A stretch of DNA of 25,767 nucleotides from a virus. The notes under the pieces are model-generated. The model made no database searches, had not been told where the DNA came from, and saw only the letters and a list, made by a program, of their open reading frames with translations. A program made the position numbers and the translations under genes. The stretch covers positions 1 through 25,767 of IMG/VR virus record IMGVR_UViG_3300009182_004041; one strand, written 5' to 3'. Below, piece after piece: positions 1,751-24,895 of this stretch; the stretch's first letter is position 1, and the number at the start of each line of letters is the position of its first letter.

Positions 1751-1956
1751 TGACATTTTATAAGCCGGTAGATCTTAAAGAAGAAGCATCATCTGGTTCT
1801 ACCAGTTCGGGTAGTATTGCCACTGTATCTGCTGCGCTAGGTGCTGTCCAGAAAAGAATTCCTGGAGATAGTTTGTTTTTCACTAAATATACTAATAATG
1901 AGAATCCAACGCCTAATACGCCGGATGCTTATAAAACATATAAACGGAACAAGTGA
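1750..1956 (+). CDS. Short Ser/Gly-rich protein, unknown
   Basis: A 68-residue protein. The first third is low-complexity (Ser, Gly, Thr and Ala, residues ~13-30), followed by a polar, Asn/Thr/Lys-rich tail that looks disordered. No domain is recognised. It is held in frame by one-base overlaps on both sides: TAATG with the upstream gene and TGATG (1954-1958) with the Dps-like gene. That conserved-style packing supports it as a real gene despite its composition. Function unknown; the neighbours suggest a virion-associated or assembly role. Confidence 0.6.
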   Translation: MTFYKPVDLKEEASSGSTSSGSIATVSAALGAVQKRIPGDSLFFTKYTNNENPTPNTPDAYKTYKRNK

Positions 1957-2396
1957 TGCTATCAGACTTAATGAAAACTTTATTAGCCAGTGACTTCAGT
2001 TATTATTTGAAGGCTCACTATTTCCATTGGAATGTGGAGGGAAAAGACTTCTATCAATACCACAAGTTTCTGCAAAAAGTTTACGAAGATGCATATGAAG
2101 CTGTGGATGCTATAGCTGAAATGATCAGAACCCTAGATGAATACGCACCTGGTAGCCTTACACGTTATAATGAATTATCACGTATACCAGACCAAACTAA
2201 GATCCCACGTGCTGAATTGATGCTAAAAGAATTATTGCATGATTCCCACACTATGATTGAACTTCTTAATGAATGTTTTGCTGCTGCTACACAAGAAAAT
2301 AAGCAAGACATAGCAAATTTTATCGCTGAAAGATTAACTGCCACAAACAAGTTTATCTGGATGATATCAAGTTTTTTGAAGGAATCTAGGGCATAA
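1956..2396 (+). CDS. dps: Dps/ferritin-like protein
   Basis: A 146-residue four-helix protein of the Dps family. Dps assembles as a 12-subunit shell that oxidises iron with peroxide and shields DNA. The ferroxidase pattern of E. coli Dps (H51, H63, D67, D78, E82) is reproduced with exact spacing: H24 in HWNV, H36, position 40, D51 and E55. Position 40, normally Asp or Glu, is Gln. The N-terminus is short (24 residues before the first ligand, against 51 in E. coli), so the lysine-rich DNA-binding tail is absent. I chose the ATG at 1956, which overlaps the upstream stop as TGATG, over the GTG at 1953. In a phage it could be packaged or protect replicating DNA in a stressed cell. The family call is firm; activity is uncertain because of the Gln. 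Confidence 0.85.
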   Translation: MLSDLMKTLLASDFSYYLKAHYFHWNVEGKDFYQYHKFLQKVYEDAYEAVDAIAEMIRTLDEYAPGSLTRYNELSRIPDQTKIPRAELMLKELLHDSHTMIELLNECFAAATQENKQDIANFIAERLTATNKFIWMISSFLKESRA

Positions 2397-6296: not shown

Positions 6297-8954
6297 GTGA
6301 GTTACGTAGACGCATTATATTCGCGGGATTCAGATCGTATCCACGTAGTAGAACGAGTTGATGGCAAAAGAGTTTATAAAGAATATCCTGCCAGTTATAT
6401 CTACTATTATGACGATCCCAGAGGTAAGTTTCAATCAATCTATGGAACTCCGGTAGCCCGTTTCTCTACACGAAACTCAAAAGAATTTCGCAAAGAAGTA
6501 GCTATGCACCAAGGCAAGCAACTGTACGAATCAGATATCAACCCCGTATTTCGTTGTCTTGAAGAAAACTATAAAAATAAAGATGCACCCATATTACATG
6601 CAGCGTTTTTTGATATTGAGGTAGACTTTCATAAAGAAAAAGGATACTCACCTACATCAGATCCATTCAATGCTATTACCGCTATTTCTGTTTATCTACA
6701 ATGGATGGAGCAGTTAGTTACATTGGTAATACCACCTAAGCACATGAGCATGGAAACAGCAATAGAAATTGCTGCTGACTTTGAAAATACTATTGTATTT
6801 GACAAAGAAGAAGACATGCTCAAGACATTCTTAGACTTGATTGAAGATGCCGATGTATTGTCAGGATGGAACAGTGAGGGATACGATATTCCATATACGG
6901 TAAATCGTATTACTCGTGTACTGAGCAAAGATGATACTCGTAGATTTTGTTTATGGGACCAACATCCGAAGGCTCGTGACTTTGAACGTTACGGCGCTAC
7001 CAGCACAACATATGACTTAGTTGGTCGTATTCATATGGACTATATGCAATTGTATCGCAAATATACATACGAAGAAAGACATAGCTATAGTTTAGATGCT
7101 ATTGCTGAGTATGAGCTTGGTGAACACAAAACACAATATGAAGGTACATTAGATCAGCTGTATAATCAAAACTTTAAAAAGTTCATTGAATATAACAGAC
7201 AAGATACAATGATTCTACATAAGCTTGATAGTAAGTTAAAATTGATGGACCTGGCAAATGAACTTGCCCATGCAAATACTGTACTAATACCTACTACTAT
7301 GGGTGCTGTTGCAGTAACTGAGCAAGCTATTATCAATGAAGCACATGAACGTGGACTAGTTGTACCTAATCGTAAAGCAAAATCAACTCAAGAGGACACC
7401 GCAGCAGCTGGTGCTTATGTAGCATTTCCAAAGAAAGGCATGCATCCTTGGATTGGAGCTGTTGATATTAACAGTCTGTATCCATCTGCAATTCGTGCGT
7501 TGAATATGGGAATGGAAACTGTTATAGGTCAGTTAAGACCAATAATGACAGACAAGTACATCAACGATATTATAGATCAAGGCAAAACATCAACAGTAGC
7601 ATGGGAAGGTCTATTTGCTTCGTTAGAATATACTGCCGTGATGGAACAAAATCGTGGCATAGAAATTACTATTGACTGGCAAGATGGAGATAAATCAACT
7701 CACTCTGCTGCTGAAATTTGGAATATGATATTCAATAGTAATCAACCGTGGATGTTAACAGCAAACGGTACTATTGTTACATATGAGCGCAAGGGTGTAG
7801 TTCCAGGACTGCTGGAACGATGGTACTCTGAGCGAAAAGACCTTCAAGCTAAGAAAAAAGCAGCGACAGATCCAAAAGAAATTGCATTCTGGGACAAACG
7901 ACAGTTAGTTAAGAAAATTAATCTTAATAGTTTATATGGTGCTATTTTGAATCCTCATTGTCGATTCTTTGATAAGCGCATTGGACAGTCAACTACCTTA
8001 TCTGGCAGAAGCATTGCCAAGCATATGGCAGGATACATTAATGAGTGTATTTTAGGTAAAAAAGATCACTTAGGTGATTCTATCATATACGGCGATACAG
8101 ATTCATGCTACTTCACGGCATGGCCTGCTATCAAGGATGAAGTTGCCAAGGGCACTATGGAATGGAACAAAGAAATTTGTATTCAGTTGTATGACAATAT
8201 CGCTGATCAAGTTAACGAATCATTTCCTGCATTCATGGAACAGGCGTTTCATTGCCCACGCGAAGCAGGCGAATTAATTAGAGCAGGTCGTGAATTAGTA
8301 GCATCAAACAGTTTGTTCATTACTAAGAAACGTTATGCCGTATTAATTTATGACTTAGAAGGCAATCGATTAGATCTAGATGGCAAACCTGGCAAATTAA
8401 AAGCCATTGGATTAGATTTAAAACGCAGTGATACTCCAAAGGTTGTTCAAGAGTTCTTGTACGAAATTCTCCAGAAGGTTCTTACTGGCACTGAACGTGC
8501 AGAGATTATTGAACGTATCCTTGAGTTTAAACTTGAATTCAAAGATCGTCCGGCATGGGAAAAAGGAACACCTAAGCGTGTGAATAATTTAACATCATAC
8601 ACCAAGAAAGAAGAAGCTGCCGGCAAAGCTAATCTTCCTGGACACGTTCGTGCAGCATTGAACTGGAATAATTTGCGTAAGATGAATGGTGATAATTATA
8701 GTATGGCAGTAGTTGATGGTATGAAAACTATCGTATGTAAATTGAAAACAAATCCGTTAGGATGGATTAGTATTGGTTATCCCACGGATGAACAACGATT
8801 GCCACAATGGTTCAAAGAATTGCCGTTTGATGATAGTTTAATGGAATCAACTATTGTTGATCAAAAAATTGATAATCTATTAAGCGTTCTAAACTGGGAT
8901 TTAGCAAGTGCCACTAATACAGAAAACACATTTCAATCATTATTTGAGTTTTAA
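6297..8954 (+). CDS. 43: Family B DNA polymerase, T4 gp43-like
   Basis: This is the replicative DNA polymerase: 885 residues, against 898 for T4 gp43. The 3'-5' exonuclease motifs are FFDIE (D106, E108), SGWNSEGYDIPY and YNRQD. The polymerase motifs are A, DINSLYPS (D390); B, KKINLNSLYG; and C, YGDTDS (D600, D602). All catalytic acids are present, so both activities should be intact. The start is GTG at 6297, immediately after the TAA of the DsbA-like gene, with AGGA about 12 bases upstream; no in-frame ATG would keep the N-terminal YVDALYSRD region. It would work with the sliding clamp encoded at 11872. It is followed with no gap by the gene at 8955, so one transcript probably covers 6036-9881. 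Confidence 0.97.
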   Translation: MSYVDALYSRDSDRIHVVERVDGKRVYKEYPASYIYYYDDPRGKFQSIYGTPVARFSTRNSKEFRKEVAMHQGKQLYESDINPVFRCLEENYKNKDAPILHAAFFDIEVDFHKEKGYSPTSDPFNAITAISVYLQWMEQLVTLVIPPKHMSMETAIEIAADFENTIVFDKEEDMLKTFLDLIEDADVLSGWNSEGYDIPYTVNRITRVLSKDDTRRFCLWDQHPKARDFERYGATSTTYDLVGRIHMDYMQLYRKYTYEERHSYSLDAIAEYELGEHKTQYEGTLDQLYNQNFKKFIEYNRQDTMILHKLDSKLKLMDLANELAHANTVLIPTTMGAVAVTEQAIINEAHERGLVVPNRKAKSTQEDTAAAGAYVAFPKKGMHPWIGAVDINSLYPSAIRALNMGMETVIGQLRPIMTDKYINDIIDQGKTSTVAWEGLFASLEYTAVMEQNRGIEITIDWQDGDKSTHSAAEIWNMIFNSNQPWMLTANGTIVTYERKGVVPGLLERWYSERKDLQAKKKAATDPKEIAFWDKRQLVKKINLNSLYGAILNPHCRFFDKRIGQSTTLSGRSIAKHMAGYINECILGKKDHLGDSIIYGDTDSCYFTAWPAIKDEVAKGTMEWNKEICIQLYDNIADQVNESFPAFMEQAFHCPREAGELIRAGRELVASNSLFITKKRYAVLIYDLEGNRLDLDGKPGKLKAIGLDLKRSDTPKVVQEFLYEILQKVLTGTERAEIIERILEFKLEFKDRPAWEKGTPKRVNNLTSYTKKEEAAGKANLPGHVRAALNWNNLRKMNGDNYSMAVVDGMKTIVCKLKTNPLGWISIGYPTDEQRLPQWFKELPFDDSLMESTIVDQKIDNLLSVLNWDLASATNTENTFQSLFEF

Positions 8955-9881
8955 ATGACAGTAACCGATTTAGTATTTTTCAAAAATCAACTAGACAAAT
9001 TATCAGTGTTTCCTATATATCAAGAGGCAAATGCGTCACTAGATAAATTTTTATATTTGATTGATAATCATTCATCTGAAAATCTTAATAAGTTTGTGAA
9101 TAAACATTATAGTATAAAAGCAGCATTTGATTCTTTTGATAATGAAGTGGCATCACTTAGGGCAAACCTAAAACAAGATATTGAAACAGCAGAAAAAGTA
9201 CTATTTCAGCAAAGTTATAGTTCATATCATGATGAAAGTATATATGATGCTTTTCATATTCTAGGTAGAAGATGGCAACCAGACATTAATCTTAATTTGT
9301 TTTATGCCAGGGTTAAACGAAATGTAGACTGGCATTATCCTGCTATGATTTTGCGACCTGGCTTTGAAAAATTTGTTGATGAATTGGTAGGGTATGATCC
9401 ATTATATCTAGTTGATATTAGTCATAAATTTATTGAGCCGGTATTAAGTAAATTCAATGAGCAATATCAACAAAGATTGCGTTTATATACAATTAAAGAA
9501 GATTCAGATCAAGAAATATTAGTAAAAATTCCTAATAATCAATTTGGTATGATAATTGGATGTCATTTTTTTAATTTTAGGCCGCTTGAAGTAATTAAAC
9601 GATATCTTGAAGAAATTTACACTAAACTACGACCAGGTGGAGTGTTTATGATGACATTCAACGATTGTGATCGATGGAGTGCGGTAAAATTGGTGGAAGA
9701 GAAGAAAGATGGCTCCTATACACCGGGCAGCTTAATCTTTGAATTAGCCAAAACGTTAGGTTATGAAATTGATTATTGTTGGCATGATGAAGGGCCACAA
9801 ACCTGGCTAGAATTACGTAAGCCAGGTGCATTAACTTCATTACGCGGTGGGCAAACACTGGCTCGGATATTACCAAAATAA
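8955..9881 (+). CDS. Methyltransferase-like protein, degenerate
   Basis: A 308-residue protein whose second half looks like a class I SAM-dependent methyltransferase. It has an acidic-loop-like segment YLVDISHKF (about residue 150), a hydrophobic strand MIIGCHFF, and LRPGG at 225-229 followed by the strand VFMMTFND, which is the usual post-motif turn and strand. The glycine-rich SAM-binding motif I is not recognisable, so catalysis is in doubt. The first ~100 residues are helical and unassigned. The ATG directly follows the polymerase TAA, so expression is tied to replication. It could be a nucleic-acid modifier or a non-catalytic Rossmann protein. Relatives in marine T4-like phages are, as I recall, annotated only as hypothetical. 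Confidence 0.5.
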   Translation: MTVTDLVFFKNQLDKLSVFPIYQEANASLDKFLYLIDNHSSENLNKFVNKHYSIKAAFDSFDNEVASLRANLKQDIETAEKVLFQQSYSSYHDESIYDAFHILGRRWQPDINLNLFYARVKRNVDWHYPAMILRPGFEKFVDELVGYDPLYLVDISHKFIEPVLSKFNEQYQQRLRLYTIKEDSDQEILVKIPNNQFGMIIGCHFFNFRPLEVIKRYLEEIYTKLRPGGVFMMTFNDCDRWSAVKLVEEKKDGSYTPGSLIFELAKTLGYEIDYCWHDEGPQTWLELRKPGALTSLRGGQTLARILPK

Positions 9882-9910
9882 TTGTGTATACTAAGTAAAA
9901 CCACTATAAT
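9882..9910 (+). promoter_or_regulatory. Sigma70-type promoter for nuclease-methyltransferase pair
   Basis: TTGTGT at 9882-9887 and a perfect TATAAT at 9905-9910 are separated by 17 bases. AGAGG at 9918-9922 is a ribosome-binding site for the ATG at 9929. The pair therefore has its own promoter just after the polymerase transcript. Confidence 0.65.
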
Positions 9911-9928
9911 ATCATATAGAGGAAATAT

Positions 9929-10501
9929 ATGAGTAAGTATTTAGAATTTGAAAAGGTAAAAGAATTAAACGAATATCGTCGTAAGATATATGCCCTACGA
10001 GAAGAGGCATACAATAAGACCGGTATCGATGTGTTAGATACTGATACGCTAAGCTCCTTAAGCATTCACGAAGTAGTACATCAATACGATTCAGAATACA
10101 ATATTAACTTTGCTCGCACAGGCGAAGACGGTAAATCCGGTGATGTCCTAATTGAACAGAAAGCTACCCAACTTAAAAAGAAAAAGCGTTCTGGTTTATA
10201 TGGCAGTGCTAGCTTTCAATTTCATGCTATGGGTGATATTGTCAATGACCGATACATTTTTGCCACTAGAGATAAAGCTACGCTAGATCTAATCCGCATT
10301 TACGATATTAGTAGTAGCAATAACAAATCCATCATTCAACAACATCTATTTGGTGAACGACAGCAGTGGGAAGACAAAAATAAAGAGCTAGGACATACAC
10401 AAAAAAGAGATGTTATTTTATTACCAGAGCATATTTTAAGTAATAGTCTTCTTAATAAAACAGTAGAAGTAATTAATAACTGTGAAGTTGTTAGGGCATA
10501 A
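9929..10501 (+). CDS. Putative PD-(D/E)XK restriction-like nuclease
   Basis: A 190-residue protein with no membrane segment. The key stretch is R63-T-G-E-D-G-K-S-G-D72-V-L-I-E76-Q-K78: a Gly/Asp-rich turn into a hydrophobic strand ending in E-x-K, the typical core of PD-(D/E)XK endonucleases. The acid at 67 or 72 could be the metal ligand, with E76 and K78 completing the site. Next come a Lys-rich patch (KKKKR) and SFQFHAMGD, consistent with DNA contact. It is followed at once by a DNA methyltransferase gene, and that context is half of the argument for a restriction-modification pair. The nuclease call is moderate: the D-to-E spacing is short and no family match could be run. A host-DNA-degrading or Vsr-like repair nuclease is the alternative. 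Confidence 0.5.
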   Translation: MSKYLEFEKVKELNEYRRKIYALREEAYNKTGIDVLDTDTLSSLSIHEVVHQYDSEYNINFARTGEDGKSGDVLIEQKATQLKKKKRSGLYGSASFQFHAMGDIVNDRYIFATRDKATLDLIRIYDISSSNNKSIIQQHLFGERQQWEDKNKELGHTQKRDVILLPEHILSNSLLNKTVEVINNCEVVRA

Positions 10502-10511
10502 ATACGTGACT

Positions 10512-11792
10512 ATGAAAAAACTACTTTTTGCAGATCAGGATTTTTTATCTCTGTTTACCTTACCCAAGCCGACATTTGAAGATTTTTGTAATAAAATTCA
10601 AATTTTAGATATCTCTGATAAATCAGGCACATTCAAAGTAAAACAAGACCTAGATAGTTTTATCGCTAGAGTGGGAAAGAAAGATAACCGAGCTGACCGC
10701 TTACCATTGTATAAGGAAAAATTATACCAATTGTTAGTGATAGACGCAGAAAAAACTCTCATGGCATGGTTTAAAACCCAAGGCACATTACCAGAAAATG
10801 TTGACTTTTATTTCAACATACCCAATGATAATATTTTATTCAATGATACCTTTACTGGTCGAACCAACGCAAAGTATGGAAAAATATGTAAGAACATCAA
10901 TTTCTTGAATTATTACAATACAAAGAAATGGTATCAGAATGATAGTGAGTATGTATTCGGTTTGCTCAAGGTTATGATGGAAGAGTTCAAACTAAGAAAT
11001 AGTTTAGCCTGTCCAGCATTCTTTGATCAAATTTGCCAGTACACAGGCGATAGTAAAATTTTCTGGCAAGCTTTTATGATAGGAGCAAACCGCCCAAGTA
11101 CATTTAATCCGGCTACTTATAAAGGTATACTTGACAACTTGTTTACAGGTGATACATTGTTTGCTCCGGTAATGGGATGGAATGCGTACCAAACTGCGTT
11201 CTATAGTAGTAAATTTAAAAACTTTATTGCCACTGATGTAATACCAGATGTAATAGAAAATGGAAATTTACTACATGTTGAATATTTAAAATATAAAACA
11301 GCAGAGAAAGATTCTGTTTTTAATAACATTTACGATGATGAAGTATTACCCAGTAAAACAGTGGATCTTTACTTGTGCCCCAGTGAACAGCTAGTTACCA
11401 GATATAATTTTGATAGGAAATACAAAAATCAAGTTGATGCGGTGCTGTTTAGTCCTCCTTATTTTGATTTAGAAATATATGATAGCAATGAACAAAGTAT
11501 AACCAATTTTCCCAATTACGACGATTGGCTGATAGGTTACTGGGAGGCAACGATTTTGCTATGCAAAGAAGTTATGAAAACTGGTGCTAAGTTTGGGTTT
11601 GTTATTAGTAATTATAGAAATGCTGCCAAAGAAGTAACAACTATCAGCGAAGATATGAGAGATGTAGCAGCAAAACACCTAACTCTGGTAAAGCATTACA
11701 GAGTGCAGTGGAGTGCGATGGGTGGAAGTAGACAAGCTAAAAAAACTAGAAATGGAAATTTTGAAGACTTGTGGCTGTTTGAAAAGCAATAA
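10512..11792 (+). CDS. DNA methyltransferase, N4-cytosine/N6-adenine type
   Basis: A 426-residue protein. The C-terminal half carries catalytic motif IV as S314-P-P-Y317 after a hydrophobic strand (DAVLF), typical of amino-methyltransferases acting on the exocyclic N4 of cytosine or N6 of adenine. An upstream VMGWNAYQTAFYSS segment followed by IATDV (about residues 220-245) fits a modified motif I and its acidic loop. After motif IV come FGFVISNYR and, at the end, GNFEDLWLF, common closing strands in this group. The first ~200 residues are probably target recognition. I start at ATG 10512; GTG codons at 10506 and 10482 are also in frame, the latter overlapping the nuclease gene. The product may protect phage DNA from the neighbouring nuclease or from host enzymes. 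Confidence 0.75.
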   Translation: MKKLLFADQDFLSLFTLPKPTFEDFCNKIQILDISDKSGTFKVKQDLDSFIARVGKKDNRADRLPLYKEKLYQLLVIDAEKTLMAWFKTQGTLPENVDFYFNIPNDNILFNDTFTGRTNAKYGKICKNINFLNYYNTKKWYQNDSEYVFGLLKVMMEEFKLRNSLACPAFFDQICQYTGDSKIFWQAFMIGANRPSTFNPATYKGILDNLFTGDTLFAPVMGWNAYQTAFYSSKFKNFIATDVIPDVIENGNLLHVEYLKYKTAEKDSVFNNIYDDEVLPSKTVDLYLCPSEQLVTRYNFDRKYKNQVDAVLFSPPYFDLEIYDSNEQSITNFPNYDDWLIGYWEATILLCKEVMKTGAKFGFVISNYRNAAKEVTTISEDMRDVAAKHLTLVKHYRVQWSAMGGSRQAKKTRNGNFEDLWLFEKQ

Positions 11793-11817
11793 TTCAAACA
11801 CCATTATGCCAAAATAC

Positions 11818-11846
11818 TTTAAGTATAAGAAGTATTACGCTATAAT
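11818..11846 (+). promoter_or_regulatory. Sigma70-type promoter for sliding clamp
   Basis: A perfect TATAAT lies at 11841-11846, with a weak -35, TTTAAG, at 11818-11823 (spacer 17). AAAGGAAA follows as ribosome-binding site before the ATG at 11872. Confidence 0.55.
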
Positions 11847-11871
11847 AAACTTAATAACAAAGGAAATATAA

Positions 11872-12594
11872 ATGCATGATCAACTCTTAGATTTAGTCAG
11901 CCACACAAATGGCTTAGGATCTATTAATCAAATTCGGGTAGTAGGAACCGATACAGAAACAAATTTCAACGGTATCGCTGAAGATCGTTCAGTAGTATTA
12001 GAAGGTGGATTGATTAATCCAATGCCTGAGTTTGTTGGTACATTTGGTATGCCAAATTTAGAAAAACTTAAAATTCTTTTGAATTTACAAGAATATAAGC
12101 AAGATGCTAAATTGTCAATTAGTCGCAAAGCAGCAGGCGAACCTGATCAAATGAACTTTGAAAACAAAGCAGGTGACTTTAAAAATAGCTATCGTTTCAT
12201 GGCATCTGAACTTGCCAATGAAAAAATCAAATCACCTAAATTCAAAGGTGTTAAGTGGAACGTTGAGTTTGAACCAACCGCATCTGCTATTGTTCGTCTA
12301 AAGATGCAAGCGACCGCAAACGCAGAACAAACCACATTCCAGGCTAAAGTTGAAGATGGACATTTAAAGTTTTTCTTTGGTGATCACAGCACACATGCTG
12401 GTAGTTTCATATTTCAACATGACATAGTTGGTGATATTAAAAGAGCATGGCCATGGCCAATCAAAACTGTTATCGCTATCTTAGATTTGACAGGTGACAA
12501 AGTTATGCGTATTAGTGACGAAGGTGCTGCCCAGATTATTGTTAACTCGGGCTTAGCAGTTTACACTTATACTATTCCAGCACAAAACAAATAA
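11872..12594 (+). CDS. 45: Sliding clamp, T4 gp45-like
   Basis: A 240-residue protein, close to the 228 of T4 gp45, the ring-shaped processivity factor that tethers DNA polymerase and also activates late transcription. The sequence alternates short beta strands and helices through two similar halves. The segment FVGTFGMPNLEKLKILLN resembles the first-domain helix and loop, and the C-terminal part (GHLKFFFGDH, then VNSGLAVYTYTIPA) resembles the last clamp strands with a terminal tyrosine-rich strand. No catalytic motif is expected. It has its own promoter and leads a short operon with the membrane protein at 12596. T4-like clamps diverge strongly, so the call rests on size, pattern and the gp43 and late-promoter context. 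Confidence 0.7.
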   Translation: MHDQLLDLVSHTNGLGSINQIRVVGTDTETNFNGIAEDRSVVLEGGLINPMPEFVGTFGMPNLEKLKILLNLQEYKQDAKLSISRKAAGEPDQMNFENKAGDFKNSYRFMASELANEKIKSPKFKGVKWNVEFEPTASAIVRLKMQATANAEQTTFQAKVEDGHLKFFFGDHSTHAGSFIFQHDIVGDIKRAWPWPIKTVIAILDLTGDKVMRISDEGAAQIIVNSGLAVYTYTIPAQNK

Positions 12595-12595
12595 T

Positions 12596-12850
12596 ATGTT
12601 TAAATTTAAAGAAAGAATTCCTCGTAGTTTAGTCAAGGTTATTACCTGGCGTATAGCGGTAACCATTACCAACTTCCTAGGAGGCTGGATTGCCAGTGGT
12701 AATCCTTGGGTTGGGCTTGGCGTAGTTAGTTTTGCGTTAGTAGTAAATAGTATTCTTTACTTCTTTCATGAACGAGCGTGGAATGCTAGTAATTATGGCA
12801 GGACTGTCTTAGATGCAGATTCATCTAATAACATTAACAATAGTAATTAA
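12596..12850 (+). CDS. DUF2061-family small membrane protein
   Basis: An 84-residue protein with two predicted membrane helices (about residues 21-36 and 40-57). It bears the DUF2061 hallmarks: an N-terminal RSLVKVITWR, a glycine-rich middle, and ILYFFHERAW at the end of the second helix. The family is found in bacteria and phages and its biochemical role is unknown. The ATG is one base after the clamp stop, so the two are co-transcribed. The C-terminal tail is short, polar and Asn/Ser-rich. Family assignment is confident, function is not. Confidence 0.8.
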   Translation: MFKFKERIPRSLVKVITWRIAVTITNFLGGWIASGNPWVGLGVVSFALVVNSILYFFHERAWNASNYGRTVLDADSSNNINNSN

Positions 12851-13154: not shown

Positions 13155-13859
13155 ATGAAAATTTTAGTATGTGGTAGTTCTGTAGTAATGCCTGATCTTT
13201 CAAAGTCGTGGACACAACGAACTTGGATTTATCATCTACAGCAAAAATTAAATTGCGAAGTTGTAAATATATCACGATCAGGTTGTGGCAATCAATACAT
13301 GCATGATGCGGTTATTGCAGAGGTCACAGAAAGACCCTACGATTTAGTTTTGGTATCTTGGAATATAGCAGACCGTATACAATTTAGAACACAATATAAT
13401 CTTAGATTATTTGATTGGGATAGAAATGGAGGAAATCCTCATGAGCAATATATGCAAAAAGATTGGATTTTTCCGCATACTCCTGATGAAATAATGCCAT
13501 TTATTGATACTATTGGTTATAAAAATAAAATTTTTGAACAGTATTTCTGTGTCATGCCAAAGTATGAAACTAATCATCAGATAATGCTAACTAATGTATT
13601 ATCATTACAGTCTACTCTTAAGTCATATGGTATACCATATACATTTGTTTGGTATAGAACGTTACTACAACTTAAACAGTTTAAAAACTATTACAATAAA
13701 ATTGATTGGAATTATGTACACCCCAGAAGCCTTTTTAGGCAAGCTAAAAATATGAACATGTGGGATGAAAAAACATTACATCCAACTGATGCAGCATATC
13801 GTTGGTATGCTGATGAGATATATAAGTTTCTTAGTGACAGAAATCTAATAAAGCCCTAG
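13155..13859 (+). CDS. SGNH/GDSL-hydrolase-like protein
   Basis: A 234-residue protein with the block layout of SGNH hydrolases, esterases or deacylases active on acylated sugars and lipids. Block I is ILVCGSS with S8 as the candidate nucleophile; block II is the Gly-containing SRSGCGNQY; block III is VSWNIAD with the Asn; block V is DEKTLHPTDAAY with the D-x-x-x-H-like pair. There is no signal peptide, so it acts in the cytoplasm or on the virion. Its 3' end overlaps the oppositely oriented adenylating-enzyme gene by 29 bases. An exact late box lies 49 bases upstream. Pairing with an acyl-activating enzyme hints at acyl-group chemistry, for example acylating or deacylating a sugar. Fold likely; reaction unknown. 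Confidence 0.65.
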   Translation: MKILVCGSSVVMPDLSKSWTQRTWIYHLQQKLNCEVVNISRSGCGNQYMHDAVIAEVTERPYDLVLVSWNIADRIQFRTQYNLRLFDWDRNGGNPHEQYMQKDWIFPHTPDEIMPFIDTIGYKNKIFEQYFCVMPKYETNHQIMLTNVLSLQSTLKSYGIPYTFVWYRTLLQLKQFKNYYNKIDWNYVHPRSLFRQAKNMNMWDEKTLHPTDAAYRWYADEIYKFLSDRNLIKP

Positions 13860-14910
13860 ATATTTTTCCAGCTGGACTAAGTGGAATTGTATCTACTGAT
13901 TTAAGTACAACTGGTTTACAATGTTTACCTAAACTTATTAAGAAGTTCTTAATACTATTTTCATCACATGCACCAACGTATAAACACTTAACCCTGTCAG
14001 TTCCAAATACAACACATTCTTTCATTCCGGAAATATTTTGTAATAGTTGTCGTTCTATACTTACAGGATTGATTTTAGAACCTTTGACATTAATTTGATC
14101 TCTACTACGGCCTAATATACGATAGTAGCCCATTTCATCTTGCTCAGCTAGGTCTCCTGTATCATACCAATCACCATGGCAAATATTAAAACCCTTGATC
14201 ATTAAATTACCATTTTCAATCTTAGCTTCTATGCCATCAGGCAGTCCTACTGTACCAACTCGTTGTGGACCAGCAAGTGGATTAGTGAAACAGTGACTCA
14301 TTGCCTCTGTCATGCCAAACGCTTCTACAATAGGCACATTAAACTTTGAGTTTAACTTGTGATACAAATCGGATGGCATAGGAGCACTGGCAGAGCGTAT
14401 AAATCTTAAATTGTCAAAATCTAATTCAGCAATAACCCTTAGTACATCAGGAATGGCCGTTATAAAAGTTGGCTTAGTGGATGGAAAGGTTTTAATATCT
14501 TTCATAGTAATGTAGGTAGTCTCACATCCTGCTAACTGTGTTGCCCAGTAAAAACCCTGTCCATGGGCATGCCATAGACTCATGATGCTGGTATATCTAT
14601 CGTTAGCTGTCAAATTGTATGAGCTAACGATGGTAGCAGCCATGTTGTTTAGCTGTGCTTGTGTGAAACTGCAAAACTTACTATCTCCTGTGGTACCTGA
14701 TGTATACCAAAGTACTCTTTCGTTAGGATAATCGTTGCCGTTTCTAACTTTTTCTTGATCTTTAGTAATGTATAAACTCCAGTCAGCGTTGTCTAAAAGA
14801 TATCTATTCCTAGCTTCAGGGGCATTAGGATTTATAATCATGATAGAATGATCTGTTAACTGAGGGATAAAGTGTTGTGGATTGTCAACACATAAGACGG
14901 CACGTTTCAT
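13831..14910 (-). CDS. Compact ANL-type adenylate-forming enzyme
   Basis: A 359-residue AMP-dependent synthetase/ligase, the only minus-strand gene here. Such enzymes activate a carboxylate with ATP as an acyl-adenylate, usually then passing it to CoA or a carrier. Motifs are complete: P-loop YTSGTTGDSK (69-78), HAHG (114-117), EAFGMTEA (196-203), YDTGD (249-253), GRSRDQINVKG hinge (267-277) and the C-terminal lysine in LSPAGK (K349). It is much shorter than the usual 500-550 residues: the P-loop is near residue 70 instead of ~160-190, so much of the N-terminal subdomain is missing. The ATG (14908-14910) follows a minus-strand late box by five bases, which predicts a leaderless late mRNA. No CoA-transfer partner or carrier protein is visible; the SGNH gene is the closest functional neighbour. 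Confidence 0.9.
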   Translation of the reverse strand: MKRAVLCVDNPQHFIPQLTDHSIMIINPNAPEARNRYLLDNADWSLYITKDQEKVRNGNDYPNERVLWYTSGTTGDSKFCSFTQAQLNNMAATIVSSYNLTANDRYTSIMSLWHAHGQGFYWATQLAGCETTYITMKDIKTFPSTKPTFITAIPDVLRVIAELDFDNLRFIRSASAPMPSDLYHKLNSKFNVPIVEAFGMTEAMSHCFTNPLAGPQRVGTVGLPDGIEAKIENGNLMIKGFNICHGDWYDTGDLAEQDEMGYYRILGRSRDQINVKGSKINPVSIERQLLQNISGMKECVVFGTDRVKCLYVGACDENSIKNFLISLGKHCKPVVLKSVDTIPLSPAGKISRALLDFCH

Positions 14911-16698: not shown

Positions 16699-17526
16699 AT
16701 GACCAGCACCACAAACGAATACAAAATAGCAGTATTATTACCAACTAGGGCTAGGACAACAGCATTAAAATTTAGTATTATCAGTGTCTTCAATCGCGCA
16801 CTTGATGTAGATTCAGTACAACTAGTGCTGGGATTTGACAATGATGACGAAGTGGGATTAAAATATTTTTCCACTGACATCCAACCTTGGTTAGAAGATA
16901 AAGGTGTAGCATATAGCGTAGTAGTATTTGAACCTATGGGCTATAATGGTTTGAATCGTTATTATAACGGTCTAGCAGTTCAAGCAAATGCCGATTGGTT
17001 ATTCGTATGGAATGATGATGCGCTTATGGAAACTACAGGCTGGGACAGAATTGTAACTAATCATGCCGGTCAATTCAAGTTGCTTAAGATTCATGTTCAC
17101 CGCGAACATCCTTATTCAATTTTTCCTATATATCCCAAGGAATGGTATGATTTATTTGGATTTGTATCTCGACACCAAATGACTGACGCTGAACTCAGCC
17201 AGATTGCTTATATGCTAGACATTATGGAAATTGTAGAAATTTATGCTACGCATGACAGACATGATTTAACTGGCAATAATAATGACACAACTTATCAAAA
17301 ACGTGATATACTAGAAGGGAATCCTAATAACCCACTAGACTTCCATCACTTTTCGTATGGCAATGGCAGAGTAGCAGATACTAATGTTATTGCTGCCTAT
17401 TTAGAATCTAAAAATGTAGACATTACATTTTGGAATAATGTTAAAGCAGGAAAACAAGATCCCTGGGAAAAACTCAGGGCCAATGATATCAACAAACAAA
17501 TGACACAAACAACGGTAAAAAGATAA
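16699..17526 (+). CDS. GT2-like glycosyltransferase
   Basis: A 275-residue protein with a GT-A fold signature. IAVLLPTRAR at the N-terminus is the usual nucleotide-binding strand of family 2 enzymes. LVLGFDNDDEVG lies at ~42-53, and N105-D106-D107 after the strand WLFVW is the DxD-type metal and donor-sugar site. It has no membrane helix, so the acceptor is cytoplasmic: DNA, protein, nucleotide or a lipid at the membrane. The C-terminal ~100 residues (SRHQMTDAELSQI and onward) are probably acceptor-specific. It is the first gene of the sugar cassette, joined to the next by TAATG at 17524-17528. Likely late-expressed. Fold confident; donor inferred from the cassette and acceptor unknown. Confidence 0.75.
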   Translation: MTSTTNEYKIAVLLPTRARTTALKFSIISVFNRALDVDSVQLVLGFDNDDEVGLKYFSTDIQPWLEDKGVAYSVVVFEPMGYNGLNRYYNGLAVQANADWLFVWNDDALMETTGWDRIVTNHAGQFKLLKIHVHREHPYSIFPIYPKEWYDLFGFVSRHQMTDAELSQIAYMLDIMEIVEIYATHDRHDLTGNNNDTTYQKRDILEGNPNNPLDFHHFSYGNGRVADTNVIAAYLESKNVDITFWNNVKAGKQDPWEKLRANDINKQMTQTTVKR

Positions 17527-18755
17527 TGAGTAAAATCACAGAAAGTAAACATTTATGGCAATGTGTAATCAGCAATGCTCCAGTGACCAAGATTTTAGAT
17601 TTTGGGCAACATGCATACGCTGATACATTCATTGCTGAAAATCAATTAAATTTATCTGAGCCTGTATTCCCGCTCCAGTTATATTTAAGTTCGGAATCAG
17701 GTGGCATTCAACTGGGTTATGCCAGTGATGCCAAGGATCGCTATAACTTGTATAGTTATAGTTATACCAGTTCCAATTCTAAGACAGCAAGAGATCACTG
17801 GGACGAATATGCCACTACCATCAAGAATAAATTTAATCCTAGGGGATTAGTTGTAGAGATTGGTAGCAATGACGGATATCTAATCAAACAATTCCAAGAA
17901 GATGGTGTCACTGCCCTAGGTGTTGACTCATCCAAAGACATGTGTAAAATTGCCAAGGCAGCAGGAGTTAACACAGTTAAAGGATTGTTTAACATTGAAT
18001 TAGCTGATAAGCTAGAATACAAACATGGAAGAGCAAATTTGATCATGGCTAATAATGTATTCAATCATGCCAATGATCCTATTGAGTTTGCAGTAGGTAT
18101 TACACATTTGCTAGACAAAGAAGGTTTGTTTGTCTTTGAAGTACCATACTGGGCCAGCATGGTTGAAAGCGGTCGTTTTATGGACATGGTGTACCACGAA
18201 CATATTTCTTACTTTACGGTTAAGAGTGTTTGGAATTTGCTACAGCAAGTTGGAATGACAATTGTAGATTATGATGTGGTTGATTACCACGGTGGAAGTC
18301 TGCGTGTTATTGCTAAAATGGATACCGGTAATGGAATGCCAGTTCTAGTACAAAGTGCAATTGAAAAAGAAACAGCAATGGGTTTGTTTAGTTATAAATT
18401 TTATAACAAGCTACAGACAAAATTTGAACAACAGCGCAATGAGTGGCTTCGCAAATTTTACCAAATTCTAGCTGATGAGCCAGATGCCGTTATTATTGGC
18501 GTGGGCGCAGCCGCAAAGGCAAATACCTGGCTCAACTGGCACAAACTAGATAAGACTCTCCTACATTGTATTACTGATTCTAGTGAATTTAAACAGGGTA
18601 AATATACTCCACTATCACGAATTCCTATTAAGGGTGACGAAGAATTTGCGCTACATGAAAAACCATATGCGTTAGTATTAAGCTGGAACATCGGCGAACC
18701 ACTAAAGCAAGCGTTACTAAAAATTAATCCAAATACAAGGTTTCTATCACAATGA
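17526..18755 (+). CDS. Nucleotide-sugar C-methyltransferase-like protein (TylC3/TcaB9 type)
   Basis: A 409-residue protein with the three-part plan of sugar C-methyltransferases that make branched-chain deoxysugars. The SAM-binding motif is VVEIGSNDG (109-117). Y223-H-E-H226 is the catalytic cluster; TcaB9 uses a Tyr/Glu/His set at nearly the same positions. HGGSLR and a C-terminal Rossmann-like half (VIIGVGAAAKANTW) are also conserved. The N-terminal zinc-binding part has decayed: where relatives carry two CxxC pairs, this one has C-V-I-S near residue 13 and no Cys in the second pair (LYLSSESGG). The catalytic core looks intact. Substrate would be a 4-keto NDP-sugar, with methylation normally at C3. 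It overlaps both neighbours, so translation is coupled within the cassette. Confidence 0.85.
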   Translation: MSKITESKHLWQCVISNAPVTKILDFGQHAYADTFIAENQLNLSEPVFPLQLYLSSESGGIQLGYASDAKDRYNLYSYSYTSSNSKTARDHWDEYATTIKNKFNPRGLVVEIGSNDGYLIKQFQEDGVTALGVDSSKDMCKIAKAAGVNTVKGLFNIELADKLEYKHGRANLIMANNVFNHANDPIEFAVGITHLLDKEGLFVFEVPYWASMVESGRFMDMVYHEHISYFTVKSVWNLLQQVGMTIVDYDVVDYHGGSLRVIAKMDTGNGMPVLVQSAIEKETAMGLFSYKFYNKLQTKFEQQRNEWLRKFYQILADEPDAVIIGVGAAAKANTWLNWHKLDKTLLHCITDSSEFKQGKYTPLSRIPIKGDEEFALHEKPYALVLSWNIGEPLKQALLKINPNTRFLSQ

Positions 18756-19159
18756 AATGTTACAACGTTGCTATCAACACAGAACCAGGCCTAGGCTCAT
18801 TCGATGATGAGCGTGGATCTATCGTAGATATCTTTTACAAGAAATCTATTAATCACGGCTGTATCATTAGTAATAATCCAGGTGCGGTGCGTGGTAACCA
18901 TTATCACAACCATACAATTCAATATACGTATGTTCTAGCAGGTGGATTAACTTATTACTCTCAGCCCGTAGATAAATCAGAACCAGTTTCAGCTTATGAA
19001 GCTGTTCCTGGAGATTTTATCATCAGTGATCCAAAAGAAATTCATGCTATGAAATCTGGTGAGCATGGATGTGTTTTTATAGCCTTTGCTGAAGGTCCCC
19101 GTGGTGGCGAAGATTACGAAACAGATACAGTAAGAGTTGATTCTATTATTCCAGAATGA
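18752..19159 (+). CDS. Cupin-fold sugar-isomerase-like protein
   Basis: A 135-residue single-domain cupin. Motif 1 is RGNHYHNHTIQYTYVLAGG, with His ligands in the HYH stretch; motif 2 is GDFIISDPKEIHAM. DERGSIVDIF near the N-terminus resembles the opening of dTDP-4-keto-sugar 3,5-epimerases (RmlC) and FdtA/QdtA-type 3,4-ketoisomerases and WbmH/CapF-type cupins. Between a sugar C-methyltransferase and an SDR, epimerising or isomerising a keto-sugar is the natural role. It has a 4-base ATGA overlap at each end. Which of the related reactions it performs cannot be told by eye. Confidence 0.75.
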   Translation: MKCYNVAINTEPGLGSFDDERGSIVDIFYKKSINHGCIISNNPGAVRGNHYHNHTIQYTYVLAGGLTYYSQPVDKSEPVSAYEAVPGDFIISDPKEIHAMKSGEHGCVFIAFAEGPRGGEDYETDTVRVDSIIPE

Positions 19160-19749
19160 AAGTAGTTATATTTGGTGGTAAAGGTGGTATAGGTAGTGCT
19201 ACTTGTGCTGCATTTGATGCAGCTGGATATACGGTATATTCTATTAGTAGTAAACAAATTGACTTTGAATGGATACAAAGTCAGCCTCAAGTAGATGAGT
19301 TATTAAGAAAAATTATGCCTGACGTGGTTGTTAACTGTGTCGGGCATTTTGACGATACCAATAAAGAAACTCATTTTAAAACTATGAACATTAATGTTGG
19401 CTCTAACTGGAGCATTATCAAACATTACATGGAAAATAAAAGCACCAAACCAGTAAAAATTATTATGGTAGGATCTAGTTCCTATAACTCAGTAAGAAAG
19501 AGCTATATTTTATACGCTGCCAGTAAAACCGCACTATATAATGTATGGCAAGGAGCTTGCGAGTATTTTTTAGGATCTAATATAACATTAGGGCTAATTA
19601 ATCCTGTAAGAACTCGTACACCAATGATAGATATGTCAACTAAAGCTATTTGCCTAGAGCCAGATGAAGTAGCGCAAGCAATTTTAAACATGACATCAAC
19701 TGAAGGTAATGAATTAGTTGATATGAAGTATCCAGAGGAAATAAAATGA
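19156..19749 (+). CDS. Short-chain dehydrogenase/reductase (SDR)
   Basis: A 197-residue classical SDR. The cofactor-binding motif is GGKGGIG near residues 8-14, then VNCVG and the active-site serines in GSSSY, then Y120-A-A-S-K124 as the catalytic YxxxK. NPVRTRTPM follows, typical after the active site. It is slightly shorter than the usual ~250, lacking the C-terminal segment that shapes substrate specificity. In this cassette it probably reduces a keto-sugar intermediate with NAD(P)H. It is embedded between the cupin and the dehydrogenase by 4-base overlaps. Confidence 0.85.
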   Translation: MKVVIFGGKGGIGSATCAAFDAAGYTVYSISSKQIDFEWIQSQPQVDELLRKIMPDVVVNCVGHFDDTNKETHFKTMNINVGSNWSIIKHYMENKSTKPVKIIMVGSSSYNSVRKSYILYAASKTALYNVWQGACEYFLGSNITLGLINPVRTRTPMIDMSTKAICLEPDEVAQAILNMTSTEGNELVDMKYPEEIK

Positions 19750-20522
19750 AAATTGGAATTATAGGCAAGGGAACGGTAGGCAAGGCAGTATACGAAGGTC
19801 TTAATCATCTAGGACATGAAATGAGTTTTTTTGATCCAGCATATGATGGATCAACAATCAATGATATCTTAGGCACAGATTGTGTGTTTATCAGTGTACC
19901 AACTAATCAAGCTGCAAATGGAGATTGTGATACTAGTATTGTAGAAAGTGTTATATCAGCATTACACGCAGCTGAATATAAGGGTCTAGTTAGTATTAAA
20001 AGTACAGTAGTACCTGGCACATGTGATCGCTTATCAGCAGAATATCCTAAACTACGTATTTGCTCAGTGCCAGAATTTCTTCGTGCAAAGACAGCATTAG
20101 CTGATTTTATGTACAATCATGATCTTCTAATTATCGGCAGTACTCGTGATGAAGATTATGTCATGATGAAAGCAATACACGGTAACTTGCCAAAGAATGT
20201 TGCATGTGTTAAACCAGCAGAGGCAGAAGTTGTAAAATATTTTAACAATGTAAATCATGCTACCCAAATTATATTTGCCAACATTGCATATGAAGTATGT
20301 AAAAAACTAGGTGTAGATTACAACAATGTATATAACGCTATCATTCAACGTGATAGTATCAACCCTGCTTATCTAATGTGTAATGAGAACCTTCGTGGTT
20401 TCGGCGGACATTGTTTGCCAAAAGATACAAGTGCATGGAACAATCTTGTTAAAAGTTTAGGACTAGAGTTTTCAATGATTCAAGCTCTTATTGATGATAA
20501 CGCAAAGGTGAATAATGAGTAA
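19746..20522 (+). CDS. Short UDP-glucose/GDP-mannose dehydrogenase-like enzyme
   Basis: A 258-residue member of the nucleotide-sugar 6-dehydrogenase family, which oxidises the C6 hydroxyl of UDP-glucose or similar to a carboxylate using two NAD+. The N-terminal GxGxVG is IGKGTVG; VPTN, KSTVVPGT and PEFLR follow. The central helix has VKYFNNVNHA and the catalytic cysteine is C223 in GFGGHCLPKD. Usual members are 390-450 residues; the C-terminal nucleotide-sugar-binding domain is absent here. The stop is clean and the next gene starts eight bases before it, so this is the gene's design and not a recent break. Probable product: a UDP-uronic acid feeding the next enzyme. Confidence 0.85.
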   Translation: MKIGIIGKGTVGKAVYEGLNHLGHEMSFFDPAYDGSTINDILGTDCVFISVPTNQAANGDCDTSIVESVISALHAAEYKGLVSIKSTVVPGTCDRLSAEYPKLRICSVPEFLRAKTALADFMYNHDLLIIGSTRDEDYVMMKAIHGNLPKNVACVKPAEAEVVKYFNNVNHATQIIFANIAYEVCKKLGVDYNNVYNAIIQRDSINPAYLMCNENLRGFGGHCLPKDTSAWNNLVKSLGLEFSMIQALIDDNAKVNNE

Positions 20523-21414
20523 AATCTTAGTAACAGGTGCCAGTGGATTATTAGGCACAGAATTTTGCCACCAGCTTAAAGCGACAGGTAACGAAGTCTG
20601 GGCGGTTGATAATCATAGTCGCAGTGAAACTATTCCTCCTTGTGATGAATGGTATAAAATGGATTTGTTGGCAAATGATAGATTTATTGGACTATCATCA
20701 TTACCCCGTGATTTTGATTACATTTACCATTATAGTGCTATTAACGGCACCACTAACTTTTATAAAATGCCAAATAAGGTATTGGAAAACAACTTTATCA
20801 GTGATATCAATATATTCAATTTTGCCGCCAAGTGTAAAAATCTTAAGCGGTTAGTATATGCATCAAGCTCTGAAGTTGTCGCTGATGATCCTGTTAGTCC
20901 TGTTACCGAAAACTCAGATGTATTCATTAAAGATATACATAACGCACGCTGGAGTTATCGTTTAGCTAAGATTACCAGTGAAAACTTTCTGGCTAATTCT
21001 GAATTGCCTTATGTTATGCTGCGGTACTTCAATGTATATGGCGAGAATTCAAAACAAGGGCACTTTCTTGGTGATCAAATTAATAAGATTAAGAATGGTG
21101 TATTCTCAGTCATTGGTTCCCATGAAACACGATCATTCTGTCATGTAAGTGATGCTATTCGTGCCAGTATCTATGTCACCGAAAATGCCAATCGTGTACT
21201 AGTAAATGTTGGAAATGATCGTGAAATATCAATTGGTGATGCTGTTCGTGTTATCGCAAATGAACTGGGTCACCCTGATGCTGTATTTGAAGAGCTACCC
21301 AGTATGCCAGGATCTGTGGCTAATCGTCGTCCTGATCTTACTAAGCTGCGTGAAATTATGCCTGATTACAATCCTTTGAGTTTTGAAGAGGGTATTCGGC
21401 AAATTTTAAATTGA
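20515..21414 (+). CDS. NAD-dependent epimerase/dehydratase, extended SDR
   Basis: A 299-residue extended SDR of the nucleotide-sugar epimerase/dehydratase/decarboxylase group. TGASGLLG (7-14) binds NAD, ASSSEV contains the active-site serine, and Y148-R-L-A-K152 is the catalytic YxxxK; RYFNVYGE and FCHVSDAI are the usual later motifs. Its position after a UDP-sugar dehydrogenase suggests a UDP-glucuronate decarboxylase or 4-epimerase (to UDP-xylose, UDP-galacturonate or a keto-sugar), but specificity cannot be read from the sequence. It starts inside the dehydrogenase gene (overlap 20515-20522) and closes the cassette. Its stop overlaps the -35 of the following promoter. Confidence 0.85.
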   Translation: MSKILVTGASGLLGTEFCHQLKATGNEVWAVDNHSRSETIPPCDEWYKMDLLANDRFIGLSSLPRDFDYIYHYSAINGTTNFYKMPNKVLENNFISDINIFNFAAKCKNLKRLVYASSSEVVADDPVSPVTENSDVFIKDIHNARWSYRLAKITSENFLANSELPYVMLRYFNVYGENSKQGHFLGDQINKIKNGVFSVIGSHETRSFCHVSDAIRASIYVTENANRVLVNVGNDREISIGDAVRVIANELGHPDAVFEELPSMPGSVANRRPDLTKLREIMPDYNPLSFEEGIRQILN

Positions 21415-22008: not shown

Positions 22009-22713
22009 ATGTTTAATACAAATCAGATAGACACCGATACAGTAGAATTAAGTTATCGGTCAGCAGAAGAAGTCAATAGCGCAATGAGCCGCGTCTATGG
22101 GTATATGAGTTTAGCAGTAATCGTATCAATGTTAGTCAGTTACTTTGTTGGAACTAGTCCTGAATTGTTAAAATTCTTTTTCACAGGAATTTTAAAGTGG
22201 ATTGTAATTTTTGCTCCACTAGCAGCAGTGTTTGGTGTTGCTATGATATTGGCACGTAGCCCAGGCAAAAGTACTGCTCTATTATGTTTATATGGATTTG
22301 CGGCACTAATGGGATTGAGCTTTGCTACAATCTTTGCCATATTTACAATGGGATCAATTGTTAGCGCATTTATGGGTGCTGCTGTATTATTTGGCACTAT
22401 GAGTTTTTATGGTTATTTTACTAAACAGAGTTTAGATAGTCTTGGTAAGTTTATGTTTATTGGTTTAATCGCCATTGTTATTGCCAGTATCGTTAATATC
22501 TTTATCGGTAGTACTGTAATGCAAATGGTTATTAGTGCGTTAGCTATTATTATCTTTCTTGGATTGACAGCATACGATACGCAACAAATTCGTGAAATGG
22601 TTAGTGTTGACTCTAGTTCAGCAGTTGAAGTAACAGGTGCGTTGACATTATATCTTGACTTTATTAACATCTTCCTTAATTTGTTACAATTGTTTGGCGA
22701 TAAAAACGACTAA
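22009..22713 (+). CDS. Bax inhibitor-1/YccA-like membrane protein
   Basis: A 234-residue protein with about seven membrane helices and a short cytoplasmic N-terminus containing Arg and Ser near the first helix. GLTAYDTQQIRE near residue 185 and ALTLYLDFINIFLNLLQLFG at the end are the signature loops of the BI-1/YccA/YbhL family. In bacteria YccA binds and slows the FtsH protease. A strong TAGGAGAT ribosome-binding site precedes the ATG. It is co-oriented with the phosphoribosyltransferase and probably under the same promoter. In a phage it could protect phage membrane or regulatory proteins from FtsH. Family sure, role inferred. Confidence 0.9.
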   Translation: MFNTNQIDTDTVELSYRSAEEVNSAMSRVYGYMSLAVIVSMLVSYFVGTSPELLKFFFTGILKWIVIFAPLAAVFGVAMILARSPGKSTALLCLYGFAALMGLSFATIFAIFTMGSIVSAFMGAAVLFGTMSFYGYFTKQSLDSLGKFMFIGLIAIVIASIVNIFIGSTVMQMVISALAIIIFLGLTAYDTQQIREMVSVDSSSAVEVTGALTLYLDFINIFLNLLQLFGDKND

Positions 22714-23354: not shown

Positions 23355-23765
23355 ATGTTAACACCAGACGCAGCATTAGGAATAATAGATATGTTTAAAA
23401 TGATTAAAAGATGGTTTACAAAGAAACCAGTGGAAAAAGCAGCACCTACCTCACCAGTTAAGACAGCTAAAGAGTTAGCCACTGATCGTGGTGAAGCCTA
23501 TGTTAATATTGTTAGCATGGATGTTGATCCAAATGGTATGGGCATGGGTTCTTTTGAATTAGACTGGAATGCAAAGTTTATTGCTGATCTAGTCAGGCAT
23601 GGTTACATGATGGATCAGAATGATACTGATGCTGACATTGTGGATCGTTGGTTTACTAATGTATGCAGAAATGTAGTATTGGAAACATATGAACAATATG
23701 AAGCTATGAGCAATCGTGTTGTAAAAACACGAGATATGGGTGATGGTCGAAGCGAGGTCAGCTAG
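23355..23765 (+). CDS. Hypothetical protein, conserved-looking core
   Basis: A 136-residue protein starting with ATG immediately after the upstream stop (TAAATG); ATG codons at 23391 and 23400 are possible later starts. After a Lys/Pro-rich segment (residues ~18-36), a compact acidic core follows (AKELATDRGEAYVNIVSMDV, then GSFELDWNAKFIADLVRHGY). I recall similar proteins in cyanophages and other marine T4-like phages, annotated as hypothetical. It ends with TAG overlapping the GTG start of the radical SAM gene by one base (TAGTG). Confidence 0.6.
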   Translation: MLTPDAALGIIDMFKMIKRWFTKKPVEKAAPTSPVKTAKELATDRGEAYVNIVSMDVDPNGMGMGSFELDWNAKFIADLVRHGYMMDQNDTDADIVDRWFTNVCRNVVLETYEQYEAMSNRVVKTRDMGDGRSEVS

Positions 23766-24895
23766 TGTCTGAAAACAAATCACTGTGTTCGTATCCATGG
23801 CGTGGTGCTTGCATATATCCAACTGGAATAGTAAAACCATGCTGCTACTGGCTTTCTGCTAATGGAAATATAAATAAGACCAATAGCAATACTACAAATG
23901 ATGCCAGAAATTCTATTGAATGGAATAACATCAGAGAAGACATGCTAGCAGGTAATCCAGTAAAGGGTTGCGAAAAATGTTACGAAATGGAATCTGTTGG
24001 CACTCATAGTGGCAGACTTAGTAGTTTACAATATCTTGTGCCTACTGAAAATAAATTAGCTCCACTAGAAGATCTTGAAGTTTCATTTAGTAATCTATGT
24101 AACTTGGCATGTGTTGGATGTGGTGATTTTAATTCCACTAAATGGAGCACTGAAAATATTAAAGCAGGTCGTCGTGGTATGAAACTTATTGATAATAAGT
24201 TTGATTGGACACAATGGGATTTGTCAAAATTAAAAACTCTTAAGATACTTGGTGGCGAGCCATTTATGGAATCAGACAGATTTTGTGATCTATTAGAATC
24301 GGTGAATCTATCTGGAGTTGAGTTGGTTGTTAATACTAATGGTACCATTCTACCTAATCCACGATTAAAAGCATTGATAGAAAAATGTAAAAAAGTTAAG
24401 TTTCTGGTTAGTATAGATGGAATGGAACTAGTTAATGACTGGAATCGTTGGCCAGGTAAATTTGAAAATATAGTAGAAACCATGCGAGTGTATGAAACAT
24501 GGTGGAAACATTTTGATAATATTATACTTAAAACACATAGTGTAGTAAATATTTTCAATATATTTACCATGGAAGATTTTATAAATTTCATGAAAAAAGA
24601 TTTTCCAAACTGGACTGCTGATTTCATGTGGGTTAATAGCCCAAGATGGCAATCTGTTCAAACACTACCAAAAGAAGTAAAGACTAGATTAATAACTGAA
24701 TTTAGTAGTAAAAACGTTGGTGACTTGAAAACTTCTAGAGAAGATTTCTATAAATTATCAATTGGTTATTTAAAAATGGATAGCTCTGTTGATTGGAATG
24801 ATGTCAAGCGCCAGATAGCCTCACTCGCAGCCGAGCGTAATTTAAATACGGAAGTTATGATACCAGATTTACAAAAGGTAATGAATGATTTTTAA
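23765..24895 (+). CDS. Radical SAM protein with N-terminal auxiliary cluster region
   Basis: A 376-residue radical SAM enzyme. The 4Fe-4S motif is C112-N-L-A-C116-V-G-C119 (Cx3Cx2C) and G163-G-E-P follows, so the core that cleaves SAM is intact. Before it, the first 72 residues hold six more cysteines (C8, C16, C26, C27, C69, C72) in a CSYPW...PCCYW...GCEKC layout, like SPASM or twitch auxiliary-cluster segments, which normally follow the core. The start is GTG at 23765, sharing one base with the upstream stop. Such phage proteins are annotated as twitch-domain radical SAM proteins; their substrates are unknown, with peptide or protein modification typical for the wider group. Confidence 0.9.
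   Translation: MSENKSLCSYPWRGACIYPTGIVKPCCYWLSANGNINKTNSNTTNDARNSIEWNNIREDMLAGNPVKGCEKCYEMESVGTHSGRLSSLQYLVPTENKLAPLEDLEVSFSNLCNLACVGCGDFNSTKWSTENIKAGRRGMKLIDNKFDWTQWDLSKLKTLKILGGEPFMESDRFCDLLESVNLSGVELVVNTNGTILPNPRLKALIEKCKKVKFLVSIDGMELVNDWNRWPGKFENIVETMRVYETWWKHFDNIILKTHSVVNIFNIFTMEDFINFMKKDFPNWTADFMWVNSPRWQSVQTLPKEVKTRLITEFSSKNVGDLKTSREDFYKLSIGYLKMDSSVDWNDVKRQIASLAAERNLNTEVMIPDLQKVMNDF

Follow-up and report, generated by a model that had tools for sequence, protein, structure and literature searches.

Can two adjacent genes of a phage, one for a putative nuclease and one for a putative methyltransferase, be a restriction-modification (R-M) system that the phage itself carries? R-M is usually taught as a bacterial defence against phages, and lytic phages appear to carry R-M themselves. 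The question is raised by the 25,767-base IMG/VR virus record IMGVR_UViG_3300009182_004041 (here called the window), in which an earlier note had recognized a nuclease-methyltransferase pair resembling a type II R-M system. That reading is supported by the predicted PvuII fold of the nuclease, the assignment of the methyltransferase, the conservation of the partners and their swapping, and with good confidence we regard the pair as a phage-borne type II R-M module. Lytic viruses with a type II R-M system are already known; less ordinary is that unrelated putative nucleases replace one another ahead of a phage methyltransferase which is itself conserved. A search of open-access papers found no earlier account of the pair.

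The window encodes a T4-type DNA polymerase (phrog_262, E 2.5e-190 in the PHROGs profile search) as well as a phage exonuclease (phrog_107). Of the 17 records with related loci three contain the T4 portal family, two of these three being about 340 kb long, and none contains a tyrosine integrase. The gene content of these records, any of which may be incomplete, therefore agrees with an origin from lytic phages of the T4-like and jumbo kinds.

The first gene of the pair (9929..10501, plus strand) encodes a protein of 190 aa, which is a putative PvuII-fold PD-(D/E)XK restriction endonuclease (R gene) according to AlphaFold2, Foldseek and a second aligner. Related nuclease genes were found at 44 loci in IMG/VR; the dereplicated set, from which near copies had been removed at 95% identity and which includes some loci reached via the methyltransferase, has 36 nuclease genes. 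The residues E76 and K78, which the earlier note had taken as the nuclease-like core, are indeed present and invariant in all 36 relatives, as are the other fixed residues of the catalytic core R63-x-G65-E66-D67-x8-E76-x-K78 (10115..10162, plus strand) and the pair F98-H99 (10220..10225, plus strand). Searches of Pfam, PHROGs, NCBIfam and PADLOC returned sub-threshold chance matches only, with none in Pfam at E 1, and a sequence-profile search of the PDB gave nothing relevant. The profile search that had been proposed as a check thus placed the protein in no non-nuclease family, and in fact in no family at all. Homologues were absent from about 50,000 deposited phage records, from the plasmids searched and from the bacterial and archaeal genomes searched. 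The nuclease family is compact, virus-only and without a match in the profile libraries searched; it appears to be undescribed and might yield new specificities.

The AlphaFold2 model of the nuclease, for which 36 relatives served as input, has a mean pLDDT of 93.6 and a pTM of 0.86. In the Foldseek search against the PDB, PvuII structures fill ranks 1-11 (best E 2e-3, probability up to 1.00), and a second aligner (VIA) superimposes model and PvuII with Z 9.9 over 138 residues at 3.4 A. Behind PvuII come NhoI and Eco15I, PvuII-like enzymes of the BisI family, at Z 8.3, after which the values drop to 5.9 among the folds listed in the structure search. In contrast, hhalign finds no similarity between the nuclease profile and PvuII (probability 0.1%). 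The kinship with PvuII is therefore one of fold and rests on the predicted model; the nuclease has the predicted fold of PvuII but not its sequence similarity and is not filed in the PvuII sequence family.

In a manual alignment made by eye, for which the PvuII sequence was checked against the PDB, the family consensus R-N-G-E-D-A...E-Q-K stands opposite R-E-G-N-D-A...E-L-K of PvuII. The core R63-x-G65-E66-D67-x8-E76-x-K78 is matched to R54-E55-G56-N57-D58-x9-E68-x-K70, in which D58, E68 and K70 are the known catalytic residues. By position F98-H99 lie near H83-H84 of PvuII, which contact bases, and from this alignment we infer an equivalence to H84. The two enzymes thus resemble each other in the predicted fold over nearly the whole nuclease chain, in the active-site pattern R-x-G-x-D ... 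E-x-K, and in the S-P-P motif of the partner methyltransferase, M.PvuII being an N4-cytosine methyltransferase with that motif. They differ in the region of N140/N141 of PvuII, which in the manual alignment reads K/N-R/H-D in the nuclease, so that the target site is likely to differ from that of PvuII. The phage pair is in addition one short operon of R and M, in which no C gene was recognized and which is carried by phages.

The second gene (10512..11792, plus strand) encodes a putative SPPY amino-methyltransferase of 426 aa (M gene), judged from PHROGs, from PF01555 in its relatives and from an AlphaFold2 model. The family alignment favours ATG 10512 as its start, 10 nt past the nuclease stop codon; GTG 10482 was considered as an alternative and is less likely by the same alignment. 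The nuclease gene lies directly before the methyltransferase gene on the same strand, as had been noted before, and the motif IV S314-P-P-Y317 (11451..11462, plus strand) is invariant in 19/19 relatives. The AdoMet-site motif I region L216-FAPVMGWNAYQ227 (11157..11192, plus strand) is conserved in the family alignment and degenerate, with A and N in place of the usual D and G. In PHROGs the protein matches phrog_12517 (5.4e-7) and phrog_498, a DNA methyltransferase (1.2e-4). PF01555 (N6_N4_Mtase) is matched by ten of the 19 relatives (best 8.2e-5, none shown over the curated cut-off), while the window enzyme itself does not match PF01555 in Pfam at E 1. With the phage DNA methyltransferases of these three families the window enzyme shares, by weak but repeated matches, a C-terminal methyltransferase domain with SPPY; it differs from them by motif I standing before motif IV, by the degeneracy of motif I and by a long N-terminal helical region. 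The model (pLDDT 83.1) shows a Rossmann AdoMet methyltransferase fold over residues ~200-426. SPPY is usual for N4-cytosine methyltransferases, and by analogy with M.PvuII it suggests N4-methylcytosine as the product. In bacterial and archaeal genomes a single distant, near-full-length methyltransferase was found (30% identity, L116). In one relative (L026, 7254-8198) a second, different methyltransferase with the motifs DPTAGWGGR and SPPY lies directly downstream of the window-type enzyme, and L087 likewise has two methyltransferases in tandem.

The pair had also been described as lying behind its own promoter, a claim that did not hold up. There is a promoter-like TTGTGT-17-TATAAT at 9882..9910 (plus strand), with a perfect TATAAT at 9905-9910, 17 nt past TTGTGT, but such sites are not above chance: CTATAATW is found six times in the window, where 4.8 occurrences are expected, and a scan of 8800-12700 with a sigma-70-like consensus gave 14 sites against 18.8 +/- 4.3 in shuffled sequences, none of them at the nuclease start. 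The gene directly upstream of the nuclease (8955-9881, plus strand) gives weak matches to Methyltransf_12/25/11 (E ~5e-4 to 1e-3) and a PADLOC match to mad2 (1.1e-5), and encodes an AdoMet methyltransferase-like protein.

Across relatives the adjacency of the pair goes far beyond chance. A methyltransferase gene lies directly downstream, and always on the same strand, in 32 of the 36 dereplicated nucleases; since some pair loci were reached via the methyltransferase, the fraction among nucleases found by nuclease queries alone is 26/30. The partner is a window-type methyltransferase in 28 of the 32, at a spacing of -32 to +62 nt, a PF01555-type enzyme in three (L043, L044, L054; E 1.5e-33), which replaces the window-type enzyme beside the nuclease, and another one in L036. 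Four nucleases (L007, L035, L041, L047) are non-adjacent. In L035, a contig of 159 kb, the same methyltransferase is encoded about 13 kb from the nuclease (E 6e-223), and no partner was found in the fragments of 11, 11.7 and 46 kb that carry L007, L041 and L047. No contig above 100 kb was seen with the nuclease but without a methyltransferase. Conversely, 13 of 54 methyltransferase clusters are without a recognized nuclease, which is expected for the harmless half of an R-M pair that is able to stay once the nuclease is lost. That complete R-M pairs are uncommon in lytic phages, as the earlier note had it, agrees with the missing homologues in the deposited phage records, but not with the 28 dereplicated pairs in IMG/VR contigs.

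Upstream of the methyltransferase three unrelated gene types occur: the PvuII-like nuclease, a D...S-x-K protein of 233-257 aa and an HNH-like protein of 232-233 aa with the pattern C-x2-C...H...C-x2-C. The D...S-x-K type comprises two mutually related subtypes, B and C (hhalign 97.4%). As hhalign finds no similarity between these and the PvuII-like nuclease, they are treated as unrelated by sequence. Neither the D...S-x-K nor the HNH-like proteins gave a significant Pfam match, so it is their motifs that suggest a nuclease nature; one C-type protein weakly matched MspI in Pfam (E 0.048), a match that was set aside.

The tree of 55 methyltransferases indicates at least seven changes among the three types. 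The clearest case is L058 (HNH-like) versus L061 (D...S-x-K), whose methyltransferases are 96% identical and whose flanks are 84-88% identical in DNA. The region between is mostly without similarity, which returns within six bases of the stop codon of the upstream gene; from these alignments the upstream gene is read as a cassette replaced up to its stop codon. In L011, which has the PvuII-like type, the methyltransferase is 91% identical to that of L061. Exchange occurs inside the PvuII-like type too, because the closest nucleases and the closest methyltransferases to those of the window belong to different loci: the nucleases most similar to the window's (65-68%) have methyltransferases that are 60-68% like the window's, whereas the closest paired methyltransferases (74-76%) accompany nucleases that are only 45% alike. 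The correlation between nuclease and methyltransferase identity is modest (Mantel r 0.33, 28 pairs), as expected if partners are exchanged.

In L058, L059, L061 and L072, and in L007 with the nuclease alone, the R-M slot immediately precedes the exonuclease gene and, where that flank is seen, follows downstream of a homologue of 23355-23765. In this part of the window (23355-24978) the corresponding gap is filled by a radical-SAM-like gene (23765-24895). The R-M slot has the appearance of an exchange hot spot. B-type D...S-x-K proteins are also encoded in many phage contigs without an adjacent methyltransferase (L130-L165 and similar), and for this reason the B type may also act alone. More distant B-type genes (L166, L171, L174, L179, L180, L186, L193) are directly followed by an SPPY, PF01555-like methyltransferase, in sequence an apparent further family of R-M pairs in phage contigs.

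Such turnover could also mean that the locus is merely an insertion hot spot, where a free-standing homing or exclusion endonuclease sits beside a solitary anti-restriction methyltransferase and the two have no common target. The changes of nuclease type on the methyltransferase tree, the frequent B/C-type genes without a methyltransferase and the loose partnering, with solitary methyltransferase clusters and four non-adjacent nucleases, would all fit, as would an HNH homing-like ORF seen by eye at the locus in some relatives (L061, 4096-5139) and the PD-(D/E)XK homing enzyme I-Ssp6803I among the fold matches (Z 5.9). PvuII scores well above that enzyme, however, and a homing enzyme would track its target locus and not methyltransferases of any family, whereas the PvuII-like gene precedes a methyltransferase in 32/36 clusters with three different methyltransferase families. 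A hot spot accounts for the swapping, but neither for L035, where the nuclease lies apart and the same genome still encodes the methyltransferase, nor for the association with other methyltransferases, and we consider it unlikely.

Still less probable is a modification-dependent (type IIM/IV-like) nuclease that cuts methylated host or rival DNA, next to a methyltransferase with an anti-restriction or unrelated job. This idea comes from the second-best fold matches, since NhoI and Eco15I need methylated cytosines (PMC11347163). The BisI enzymes cut modified and not unmodified DNA and have Q-x-K at their active site (PMC11347163), while E-x-K is found in 36/36 of the nucleases described here. 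At positions that may or may not be equivalent to the methyl-reading pair (H/R)(V/I/T/M), 35 of the 36 have H99-A100. A phage with a methylation-dependent cutter next to a methyltransferase would, moreover, put its own genome at risk. We give hardly any weight to the idea that the methyltransferase acts on tRNA or rRNA and is unrelated to the adjoining nuclease: its closest solved folds are the tRNA methyltransferases TrmN/Trm11 (Z up to 16), but the superfamily fold, here that of a model, does not by itself discriminate DNA from RNA substrates, whereas the PF01555 matches of ten relatives, the match to phrog_498 and the PF01555 enzymes that replace it beside the same nuclease all point to DNA.

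This pattern agrees with a type II R-M module whose nucleases are exchangeable and which has so far been found in viral contigs only: the genes are separate and linked, the nuclease has an invariant core (D67, E76, K78) in a predicted restriction enzyme fold, and the partner has the methyltransferase fold and SPPY. The upstream gene would encode a PvuII-fold, presumably dimeric, metal-dependent endonuclease cutting a short unmodified site, and the downstream gene an amino-methyltransferase modifying the same site in phage DNA. A shared target, to which the swapping of partners points only indirectly, cleavage and the use of the module are what we infer from this pattern. R-M logic, in which a toxic partner needs a protective match, would explain why the nuclease occurs with three methyltransferase families and the methyltransferase with three putative nuclease types. 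No control gene was recognized beside the pair; the order R before M may be safe all the same, because incoming phage DNA would already carry methylation from the last host, so that the nuclease could be made at once. It would then most likely attack host DNA and rival phages that lack the methylation.

Virus-borne R-M enzymes are known from chloroviruses, where host DNA is degraded, and from marseilleviruses, where rival viruses are cut but host DNA is not (PMC7253447, PMC7248222). These systems are likewise complete R and M pairs in lytic DNA viruses, but they belong to eukaryotic viruses and use other enzymes, whereas here bacteriophages carry predicted PvuII-fold, exchangeable nucleases. 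By analogy the target of the pair may be host DNA, rival phages or both, and the present data do not choose between them.

In relatives the DNA-marking enzyme is retained and the cutting enzyme exchanged for unrelated ones, so restriction seems to serve these phages as a weapon; the methyltransferase probably shields the phage's own DNA. A bolder and more doubtful proposal, to which we lean rather less than to its opposite, is that the conserved methyltransferase is a fixed 'password' of lytic T4-like and jumbo phages, before which isospecific PvuII-like, D...S-x-K and HNH-like nucleases are plugged in, so that phages sharing the password coexist while the host and passwordless phages are cut. 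If true, such phages would form an epigenetic compatibility group. That unrelated putative nucleases are swapped before one conserved methyltransferase predicts isospecific enzymes and allows a direct test of whether DNA marking divides phages into groups.

Genes of other kinds occur elsewhere in the window. A run of sugar-nucleotide genes (16699-21414, plus strand) encodes a C-methyltransferase (PF08484), a cupin isomerase-like protein, an SDR-like protein, a UDP-glucose dehydrogenase-like protein and an NAD epimerase, and by sequence looks like a phage-carried deoxysugar or surface-glycan pathway. The phage DNA further encodes a Ferritin/Dps-like protein (1953-2396, plus strand; PF00210, E 4e-20), a membrane protein of the Bax inhibitor-1 family (22009-22713, plus strand; PF01027, E 5e-53) and, on the opposite strand, an AMP-binding, acyl-CoA synthetase-like enzyme (13831-14910, minus strand; PF00501, E 1.7e-28).
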